64,000 bases of DNA from Aureimonas flava (GTDB taxonomy: Bacteria > Pseudomonadota > Alphaproteobacteria > Rhizobiales > Rhizobiaceae), in NCBI RefSeq assembly GCF_003583935.1, contig NZ_QYRN01000005.1, positions 62,001 through 126,000 of the forward strand, given 5' to 3'. Both the position numbers and the translations under genes were made by a program. The notes under the pieces were generated by a model. It was not told where the DNA came from. It saw nothing but the letters and a program-made list of their open reading frames with translations, and did not search any database. Numbering within the stretch: position 1 is the first letter of the stretch; each line of letters starts with the position of its first letter. Of the stretch, positions 58,915 to 61,869 are shown one piece after another.

Positions 58915-60483
58915 CTACTCCTCGATCATGCGACGGATCACGTCGAGCTCCTCCGAGAGCTTCTCGTCGCCCGCCCGCTCCGCCTCGATCTTGCGCACCG
59001 CATGGAGCACGGTCGTGTGGTCGCGGCCGCCGAAACGCCGCCCGATCTCGGGCAGCGAGCGCGGCGTCATCGTCTTGGCGAGATACATGGCGATCTGGCG
59101 CGGGCGCACGATGGTGCGCGTGCGCCGGGCCGAGAGGATGTCGGTGCGCGACACGTTGTAGTGGCGCGAGACGAACTTCAGGATGTCCTCGATGCGCACC
59201 CGCTTCTCGCCGCCGGCGCGCGTGAGCTGGTTCAGGAGGTCGTCGAGGTGCTCGGCCGAGAGCGGCTGGCCGACGGCGTGGCGGAAGGCGATCTGGTTGA
59301 AGGCGCCTTCGAGATCCCGCCCCGAGCCGGCGACGCGGCGCGCGATCGTCTCCACCACCGTCTCGGGCAGGGAGAAGCTCGGATCCCCCGCCTTCATCGC
59401 CGCCACGCGCGAGGCGAGGATGCCCCGGCGCATCTCGTAGTCGGGCGAGACCATCTCGATGGCGACGCCCCCGGACAGGCGCGAGCGCACGCGGCTGTCG
59501 AGCGATTCCAGCTCGAAGGCCGGCCGGTCGGCCGCCACGATCACCTGCCGCGCCGAATCGATCAGCGCGTTGAGGAGGTGGCAGAACTCCTGCTGGATCG
59601 ACTTGCCCTGCAGGAACTGCATGTCGTCGATGATCAGGATGTCGATGCCGCGCAGGTTCTCCTTGAAGTCGAGCGCCTGGTTGTCGCGGATCGCGGTGGC
59701 GAAGCGCCACATGAAGTATTCGGCGGTGAGGTACACGACGCGCGGCCGGTCCTCGCGCGCCACCGCCGCGTTGGCGATGGCCTGGAGGAGGTGCGTCTTG
59801 CCGAGCCCCACCGAGGCGTGGAGGAAGAGCGGGTTGAAGCGCACCGACTGCGGGCCGTTCTCGGCGATCGAGCGGGCGGCGGCGAGTGCCACGCGGTTGG
59901 AGGCCCCTTCCACGAAGGTCGAGAACACGTAGCGCGGATCGAGCGGCGAGCCGAATTCCGGCCGCGCGCCCTCGCTCGCGGCGCCGCGCTCGGGGGCAGC
60001 GCCCTGGCGGGCCGGGGGGGCGGGCGCGCGGGCGCTCGTCTCGTTCGCGGCGGGCGGCTGGTCGGCGTTGGCGGCCGGCGGGGGCACGGCGACGCCGCGA
60101 ACCGCCGAGCGCACCGCGACGTCCACCTTCAGCGTGCCCGGCACCTCCTCCGCGAAGATCTGCAGCAGCAGGTCGCGATAGTGCCCGTTGATCCAGGACT
60201 TCAGGAACGCGGTGGGCACGGACAGCTGCACCACGCCCTTGCCGACGTGCTCGAGCTTGAGGCGGGCGAACCACGAGGCGAAGACGTCGGGGCCGAGCTG
60301 TGCCTTGAGACGGGCGTTCACACGATCGAGGATCGCCGTCTCGTCGCGTGCCGGTGCTGCCATCGAGGTCTCGCCATCATGAGGTGCGGCCGGGGCGGCA
60401 CGGCTGGGGGTGGAGGGGAAGGCGCGCGCGTGCGCGCCCGGAACCGGGGAGGCAGACGCGGCGCCTGCGTGGAGGGCGGTCAT
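58915..60483 (-). CDS. dnaA: DnaA, replication initiator
   Basis: 522-residue initiator: domain I (ILDRVNARLKAQLGPDVFASWFARLKLE), a Pro/Ala linker, the AAA+ domain (Walker A ASVGLGKTHLLQA, Walker B ILIIDDMQFLQGK, FCHLLNALID) and the domain IV helix-turn-helix with GGRDHTTVLHAVRKIE. The ATG at 60483 has GGAGG at five bases and overlaps the rhodanese stop (ATGA), so it is preferred. It adds about 40 low-complexity residues before the next ATG at 60363, which would give a 482-residue protein. Confidence 0.96.
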   Translation of the reverse strand: MTALHAGAASASPVPGAHARAFPSTPSRAAPAAPHDGETSMAAPARDETAILDRVNARLKAQLGPDVFASWFARLKLEHVGKGVVQLSVPTAFLKSWINGHYRDLLLQIFAEEVPGTLKVDVAVRSAVRGVAVPPPAANADQPPAANETSARAPAPPARQGAAPERGAASEGARPEFGSPLDPRYVFSTFVEGASNRVALAAARSIAENGPQSVRFNPLFLHASVGLGKTHLLQAIANAAVAREDRPRVVYLTAEYFMWRFATAIRDNQALDFKENLRGIDILIIDDMQFLQGKSIQQEFCHLLNALIDSARQVIVAADRPAFELESLDSRVRSRLSGGVAIEMVSPDYEMRRGILASRVAAMKAGDPSFSLPETVVETIARRVAGSGRDLEGAFNQIAFRHAVGQPLSAEHLDDLLNQLTRAGGEKRVRIEDILKFVSRHYNVSRTDILSARRTRTIVRPRQIAMYLAKTMTPRSLPEIGRRFGGRDHTTVLHAVRKIEAERAGDEKLSEELDVIRRMIEE

Positions 60484-60914
60484 TTCTGCCTCCAGGGCAG
60501 GCCGGCCGCCTTCCATCCCGCGAGGTTGCCGCGGTGGCCGTCGGGATCCGGCGGTCCCTCGAAACCGTCCAGCACGTTGTGGCAGGCGGAGAAGCCCGCC
60601 GCCGTCATCGCGGCCGCGCTCGACATCGAGCGGGCCCCGGAGCGGCAGAGGAAGAAGATGGCGGACTCCTGCGAGCCTCCCGCCGCGCGCACCGCGGCGC
60701 CCACGCGCTCCACGAAGCCGGCGTCGACCGACATCGACGGATAGTTCTGCCATTCGGCGAACACGGCGTCCCGGCCGTTCTCGGGCACGAGCGGGAAGCC
60801 CACGAAGTTCCATTCGGCGCTGGTGCGCACGTCGACCAGAAAGCTCTGGGGGTCGGATTGCAGGACGGACCAGCACTCCTCGACCGAAACGTCGCCCTTG
60901 TAGGACCGGCTCAT
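60480..60914 (-). CDS. Rhodanese-domain protein upstream of dnaA
   Basis: 144-residue single-domain rhodanese. The active Cys90 sits in the loop FFLCRSGARS, and the CDC25-like FLVDVRTSAEWNFVGFP is conserved. The reaction is probably sulfur transfer, but the acceptor is unknown. It starts at ATG 60914 with GGGAG six bases upstream. The stop overlaps the dnaA start by four bases, so the two are likely translated in a coupled way. Confidence 0.88.
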   Translation of the reverse strand: MSRSYKGDVSVEECWSVLQSDPQSFLVDVRTSAEWNFVGFPLVPENGRDAVFAEWQNYPSMSVDAGFVERVGAAVRAAGGSQESAIFFLCRSGARSMSSAAAMTAAGFSACHNVLDGFEGPPDPDGHRGNLAGWKAAGLPWRQK

Positions 60915-61132
60915 CGCGAACTCCCAACACGCCGCGCCGACCGAAGCCGGCCGCGGCGGAACGCAGAACGAAATCCACCCTGCCGCGCTCGAACGGAGCG
61001 CGAGCGGTCGGGTGATCCTCATCGATTAACGGAAAGCGCCCGGACGACCCGGCTTCGGGTGGGTCCGCTTAAGTTCTGGAAAACGCCCCTTGTCCCCAGC
61101 CTTCGTCGTCCGGCGCTCTTGTCGTGGGGCAA

Positions 61133-61161
61133 AAGCTACGGAACAGCCCAGGTTCGGGCAA
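61133..61161 (-). promoter_or_regulatory. Possible rhodanese-dnaA promoter
   Basis: On the minus strand TTGCCC (61161-61156), 17 bases, TAGCTT (61138-61133). The leader would be about 210 bases. A GANTC site (61167-61171) lies directly upstream of the -35. Confidence 0.45.
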
Positions 61162-61166
61162 GCTTT

Positions 61167-61538
61167 GAATCGGCGCTCGCGACCTCACCGTGGCCGAACT
61201 GTGGCGACTCCGACATGCCCGTTTCGCGGCCGAAATTCGCAATCGCCTGATTCAAAGGGAGATTCGAAAGGCGGGCGGGCCGCCATTTGGTCGCAGGTCT
61301 GAACGCGGGATTCTTTTTCGCGCCCCGGCTTGACTCCGGCGACTCGCCGCCGGCCGCCGGAAGGACCCGGGGTGGTTTCCGACCCCCTCCGACAAGCGGC
61401 TGTTTGCGCAAGGGTTTTTGTGATTCACGTCAACTCGGCGGCGTGGGCGACAGGGTGTCACATGACAGGGGAATGACGCGGCGGCGGCGTCCGGCCGGTC
61501 CCCCCGCCACACTCCTCCCGCCGCGCGGGGAGCGAATC
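61167..61538. promoter_or_regulatory. Cluster of nine GANTC (CcrM methylation) sites
   Basis: Sites start at 61167, 61206, 61249, 61261, 61309, 61332, 61341, 61422 and 61534. Nine in about 370 bases is far denser than expected for such GC-rich DNA (about one). They sit upstream of the dnaA transcription unit, where CcrM methylation is known to act on dnaA in Caulobacter. Confidence 0.55.
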
Positions 61539-61540
61539 GA

Positions 61541-61574
61541 AAAAGGGCCCGAGGCATGTGCCTCGGGCCCTTTT
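61541..61574 (-). terminator. rpsT terminator
   Basis: AAAAGGGCCCGAGGCA (61541-61556) and TGCCTCGGGCCCTTTT (61559-61574) are perfectly complementary; on the minus strand it ends in TTTT. It begins 26 bases after the rpsT stop. It is symmetrical and could act in both directions. Confidence 0.88.
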
Positions 61575-61599
61575 CAAAGCGGATCGTGGGTGCGGCCGA

Positions 61600-61869
61600 T
61601 CAGGCGGCGCCGACGGCCTTCACGCGGCTCGCCAGACGCGAGATCTTGCGCGAGGCGGTGTTGCGGTGGATCACGCCCTTGGAGGCCGCGCGCGCCAGCT
61701 CGGGCTCGGCCGCCTTGAACGCTTCCTGCGCCGCCGCCTTGTCGCCGGTCAGGATCGCTTCCTCGACCTTGCGCAGGAAGGTGCGCACGCGCGAGCGGCG
61801 CGCCTTGTTGACGGCGGTGCGGCGGGCGATCTTGCGGGCGGCCTTCTTGGCCGACGGCGTATTGGCCAT
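61600..61869 (-). CDS. rpsT: 30S ribosomal protein S20
   Basis: 89-residue basic protein, full length ([26 protein letters not shown] through [23 protein letters not shown]). It binds 16S rRNA. It starts at ATG 61869 and has its own strong promoter and terminator. The rpsT-dnaA neighbourhood is conserved in rhizobia. Confidence 0.98.

Follow-up and report, generated by a model that had tools for sequence, protein, structure and literature searches.

A conserved cluster of GANTC sites upstream of the rhodanese-dnaA unit in Aureimonas flava, a candidate CcrM-responsive control region

The stretch between rpsT and a rhodanese-domain gene preceding dnaA in Aureimonas flava carries nine copies of GANTC, the CcrM target motif, within 372 bases (61167 to 61538, no strand assigned; coordinates refer to the window, the 64,000-nucleotide stretch of DNA that was analysed), adjoining a promoter-like block that is conserved within the genus. 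We consider it likely that this stretch serves as both promoter and upstream regulatory region for a rhodanese-dnaA transcription unit, in which the dense GANTC sites would be CcrM targets reporting the replication state to that promoter. The cluster is genuine and conserved, and is best taken as a regulatory region for dnaA that most likely senses CcrM methylation; in A. flava and its rhizobial relatives, the dense patch probably couples DnaA production to recent replication of the locus.

On the minus strand, the genes follow in the order mutM-type glycosylase, enoyl-CoA hydratase, rpsT (ribosomal protein S20; 61600 to 61869), terminator-like repeat, cluster, promoter-like block, rhodanese-domain gene (60480 to 60914), dnaA (58915 to 60363), dnaN, and a RecF/SMC-type gene, with rpsT, the rhodanese-domain gene, and dnaA assigned by domain match. 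The original prediction had placed the cluster directly upstream of the dnaA transcription unit. This holds insofar as dnaA follows, but the first gene downstream of the promoter is the rhodanese-domain gene, whose end lies 116 bp from the start of dnaA. The closest named relatives of this dnaA are from Aureimonas (94% identity). The upstream edge of the region is a terminator-like inverted repeat with a T run after rpsT (61540 to 61574, minus strand), which was read from the sequence and was not reported by a terminator scan. An Rfam search of the region returned only two matches, both over this repeat and far under the gathering scores, and a known structured RNA at the cluster was rejected on these grounds. 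On the upstream side of the cluster lies a perfect palindrome, TGTCACATGACA (61456 to 61467); near its place the Rhizobium group has TGTCA...TGACA and other genus genomes have the related GTCAC...TGTCAT.

Counting the sites bore out the predicted cluster, with GANTC starting at 61167, 61206, 61249, 61261, 61309, 61332, 61341, 61422, and 61534. This number is far beyond that in 5000 dinucleotide-preserving shuffles of 61133 to 61538 (mean 1.8, maximum 7), and shuffling of the wider stretch from 60917 to 61599 gave a mean of 3.0 and a maximum of 10 (p 0.002). The window as a whole is poor in GANTC (76 sites vs 307 expected), and its runner-up place holds three per similar span. Sampling of 40 further stretches of this genome (775,594 bases, averaging 1.03/kb) yielded no 372-base window with more than six GANTC; that maximum lay beside hemE, and no other place exceeded four. 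An intergenic GANTC count, set beforehand as a test of the original prediction, gave 13.1/kb for the rpsT-rhodanese gap compared to a mean of 1.92/kb over 382 predicted gaps (that gap included). Gap prediction relied on a home-made gene finder, which also yields false gaps (one of them 9 kb long), and covered 838,274 bases (0.84 Mb, window included), roughly one fifth of the genome. Among the 59 predicted gaps of at least 300 bp, the dnaA-side gap ranked first and the hemE gap second (9.6/kb), in a sample for which the hemE, ccrM, and gcrA stretches had been chosen knowingly for those genes. Only two GANTC each were found in the 660 bp upstream of ccrM and the 701 bp upstream of gcrA. Nine kb without a called gene (L127 3363-12458, G000:C22) hold 23 GANTC and are perhaps an island of other composition.

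All 21 genus genomes scored, A. flava included, carried 5–13 GANTC in the gap and 5–10 in its best 372-base window; where rpsT was not found (G005, G011, G013, G014), the stretch scored was instead the sequence preceding the rhodanese gene, to a maximum of 900 bp, and 15 of the 61 genomes (A. flava included in the 61) were left out of gap scoring. The pooled genus gaps contained 188 GANTC compared to 74 from shuffles, and p was below 0.05 for 18 of the 21 genomes taken singly, the exceptions being G003 (0.057), G006 (0.127), and G020 (0.063). Exact-match conservation averaged 0.54 over the nine sites vs 0.17 elsewhere in the alignment (permutation p 5e-5). Given the shuffles in both A. flava and the genus, together with this site conservation, chance does not suffice as the cause of the cluster. 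The individual sites differ in how well they are kept across the 20 other genus genomes, with three found in all 20, one in 16, and five in 0–30%, a pattern that points to a fixed core plus extra sites that drift in position. A GANTC is present in all 21 genomes at the promoter-proximal GATTC (61167 to 61171, minus strand), and the GAATC at 61249 to 61253 (minus strand) is kept in all 20 others, its partner at 61261 to 61265 being the one kept in 16. The GAGTC at 61332 to 61336 (minus strand) lies inside a genus-invariant block, GAGTCAAG, an 8-mer that likewise shows no variation among 22 aligned sequences from the Rhizobium group.

The candidate promoter, TTGCCC-N17-TAGCTT (61161 to 61133, minus strand), was likewise present as predicted, with a GANTC near its -35. 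Its -35-like element (TTGCCC, 61156 to 61161) reads TTGCCC or TTGCTC and its -10-like element (TAGCTT, 61133 to 61138) TAGCTT or TAACTT in 21/21 genus genomes, and the whole arrangement of GANTC, 5 nt, -35, 17–18 nt, and -10 is common to all of them with small changes. Because a plain consensus promoter scan of the region gave no match, the promoter call rests on this conservation. Two DnaA-box-like 9-mers with two mismatches each follow at fixed distances in the leader, TTGTCCCCA 35 nt past the -10 (61090 to 61098, plus strand; 21/21 genus genomes) and TTTTCCAGA 50 nt past it (61075 to 61083, minus strand; at most two mismatches in 17/21). Such leader boxes are weak, mostly with two mismatches, and the background of comparable 9-mers is 0.65/kb. 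No conserved block was seen between the rhodanese gene and dnaA, which disfavours a second promoter there. One study of Sinorhizobium meliloti describes a putative 5'-UTR of dnaA that is long, its probes reaching to -372 (PMC4414408); this fits a far-upstream dnaA promoter, without mapping that promoter to the conserved block.

The idea of methylation control presupposes a ccrM gene, and the A. flava genome indeed encodes one CcrM of 381 aa, which combines N6_N4_Mtase and RAMA domains and is the only RAMA match in the genome. All 61 genomes searched (A. flava and 60 relatives) had a RAMA match. Three genomes of the genus (G012, G016, G019) had two each and a second CcrM-like copy may exist, although the two G019 matches, each located at the start of a contig, could represent a single repeat. 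GcrA gave one strong match in A. flava and a weak second one (G000:C23:244171-244410, 30.2 bits vs a cut-off of 26.9). Two features expected of a GcrA-activated promoter were found, namely gcrA in the genome and a GANTC next to the core promoter (5 nt before the -35, 21/21 genus genomes). SeqA (PF03925) had no match in the A. flava genome.

Beyond the genus, enrichment extends to rhizobial relatives at lower density. Of 80 named loci taken, eight without an rpsT match were dropped, and in all 72 scored the gap was denser in GANTC than the rest of the locus, albeit less dense than the genus cluster; this set may overlap with the genome set. The best GANTC window fell inside the gap in 67 of these loci, and gap enrichment was 5.8 for GANTC compared to 1.15–2.47 for seven control gapped palindromes. 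In 25 genomes outside the genus the gap was poorer in GANTC, with a window of at least five in 9/25 and a single site in the gap of the 1.1-Mb genome G026. From 107 other genomes of the class with a dnaA match, loci of 29 were scored (one having only 238 bp upstream); their best upstream windows held 0–6 GANTC, with 2–3 in 19/29. A RAMA match over the cut-off was found in 24 of these 29 genomes and none at all in four, and lineages lacking CcrM said little as a control because CcrM carriers also had few sites. The rpsT-dnaA neighbourhood is widespread in the class; the dense cluster occurs chiefly in the Rhizobiaceae in the broad sense.

In the Rhizobium group (L172-L222), tblastn found no rhodanese gene between rpsT and dnaA, and the gap to dnaA measures 0.84–1.22 kb. 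Here, a conserved T-rich stretch comes after GAGTCAAG, and a CCTGC.TAAAT block lies downstream of GAGTCAAG, 542–643 bp before dnaA, in seven of eight loci checked. Most rhizobial cluster sites sit about 550–1070 bp before dnaA. An earlier comparison limited its GANTC count to the 400 bp preceding the start codon and reportedly reached no verdict on regulation (PMC2877005), which suggests that its survey window would miss most of the rhizobial cluster. A literature search, short of most subscription papers and all supplements, returned no report of a rhizobial dnaA cluster.

Because ccrM is present, the density is high, and both the cluster and the promoter blocks are conserved, control of dnaA transcription through GANTC, as originally predicted, is a sound proposition. 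In the mechanism we propose, the cluster sites would be fully methylated before arrival of the fork and hemimethylated from its passage up to the action of CcrM in late S phase, and the region may be replication-linked in this way. The GANTC beside the -35 would be read by GcrA together with RNA polymerase, or by another methylation-sensitive protein, and promoter output would shift after replication, most likely downwards, limiting new DnaA. The upstream sites could form a multi-site platform that renders the response larger or more switch-like, and DnaA itself may contribute feedback through the DnaA-box-like 9-mers a short way downstream. What we infer here comprises the methylation itself, the transcription start, the regulation, the reader protein, the direction of the effect, cooperativity, and DnaA feedback. 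MucR is another possible reader of the cluster, by analogy with S. meliloti, where MucR is reported to be able to shield GANTC from CcrM (PMC5172544).

That the Caulobacter dnaA promoter responds to GANTC state favours this interpretation, but the effect is described as small, if significant (PMC3973325). Several observations speak against it. DnaA levels are reported to be unchanged upon loss of ccrM in Caulobacter (PMC3667746), and GcrA/CcrM regulons to be strongly rewired, with targets poorly conserved between close relatives (PMC7987155). The failure of the consensus scan, the weak DnaA-like boxes, and the three individually non-significant genus genomes likewise count against it, as do the CcrM carriers outside the group, which mostly lack the cluster. 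A simpler account, which we regard as quite improbable, is that GANTC is avoided in coding DNA and a long gap merely gathered sites, so that the promoter-proximal site or none of them matters. Sampled gaps are about twofold denser than the remaining DNA (1.92 vs 0.93/kb), GANTC is also described as richer in gaps for Alphaproteobacteria (PMC3973325) and Ensifer (PMC8725594), and the five rarely kept sites would fit such relaxation. In contrast, the dnaA-side gap far exceeds the gap mean, three sites occur in every genus genome, and site numbers are held while positions drift. Together with the much lower enrichment of the control palindromes, this gap density and genus conservation leave general intergenic enrichment insufficient as an explanation.

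The original prediction also suggested a replication-linked region, which as an origin did not stand up. It is highly improbable that the cluster region is part of the chromosome origin, even though it adjoins dnaA and GC skew in the complete genome G005 turns positive just after dnaA, to become negative again by 220 kb. The rpsT-rhodanese gap of A. flava contains no DnaA box with at most one mismatch, whereas such a box lies upstream of hemE in 11/13 genus genomes. In G005, GC skew (from -0.015 at 390–410 kb to +0.032 at 440–460 kb) and the orientation of GGGNAGGG, which we take to be the orientation motif from FtsK work, both flip at 0.41–0.44 Mb, where hemE lies (426 kb). The GC-skew check for a nearby origin hence gave a sign change at both hemE and dnaA, of which only that at hemE is backed by a flip of GGGNAGGG; the motif shows none at dnaA. 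An origin at dnaA was rejected on the DnaA boxes and the hemE evidence. Most likely, the origin is located at hemE, which is on a different contig from dnaA, although GC skew taken by itself would not separate the two places, since its sign changes near dnaA as well. Upstream of hemE, 6–12 GANTC were found within 1500 bp in 13/13 genus genomes checked, including a close-packed GACTC-ATA-GAATCA-GAATC group that is well conserved in many but not all of them. The A. flava hemE upstream gap (G000:C19, L007 16918-17542) has six GANTC around a one-mismatch DnaA box and is the likely origin. To us, the most interesting aspect is that dense GANTC occurs in two places at once, the dnaA promoter and the likely origin.

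In E. coli, SeqA acting on GATC (Dam) sequesters oriC and the dnaA promoter after replication. A sequestration-like factor that recognises groups of hemimethylated GANTC, at oriC as well as the dnaA promoter, and keeps both off for part of the cycle is conceivable here though unlikely. The dnaA and hemE gaps being the two densest of those sampled would suit it, as would the conserved GANTC group at hemE, but this ranking covers about 20% of the genome with the hemE stretch picked on purpose, and A. flava lacks a SeqA match, no candidate binder having been found. A Brevundimonas study suggests a methylation-dependent repressor (PMC7987155), and in Agrobacterium renewed firing of ori2 has been proposed to be held back by its hemimethylation (PMC11514494). 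The bolder version, in which the Rhizobiaceae and aurantimonads have a GANTC counterpart of Dam/SeqA whose hemimethyl-GANTC-binding factor holds the dnaA promoter and oriC off after replication, we consider rather unlikely; if true, the GANTC-based system arose separately from gammaproteobacterial Dam/SeqA. For the question of how alphaproteobacteria limit re-initiation in the absence of SeqA, the locus offers a specific, conserved element that lends itself to testing, in a large group to which plant symbionts belong.

Under the preferred reading, CcrM methylation at a rhodanese-dnaA promoter, A. flava shares with E. coli Dam/SeqA the dense adenine-methylation sites at the dnaA promoter and, likely, the origin, as seen in the sampled fifth of the genome. 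The motif and enzyme differ, GANTC and CcrM here vs GATC and Dam, and sequestration is only a proposal in a genome with no SeqA match. The Agrobacterium repABC loci are reported to be GANTC-rich and under the control of CcrM and GcrA (PMC11514494), and in both cases the promoter of a gene for a replication initiator has an excess of GANTC. In Agrobacterium this initiator is RepC, which serves a secondary replicon or plasmid, whereas A. flava has the cluster at the gene for DnaA, the initiator for its main chromosome. The cluster is best read as what may be an enlarged form of the Caulobacter crescentus dnaA arrangement, with which it shares GANTC at a dnaA promoter in a CcrM-bearing alphaproteobacterium and a post-replication change in methylation as the proposed signal (PMC3973325). 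A. flava differs from it in having nine sites (5–13 in the genus), a long gap, and a rhodanese gene between promoter and dnaA, with regulation that we infer.
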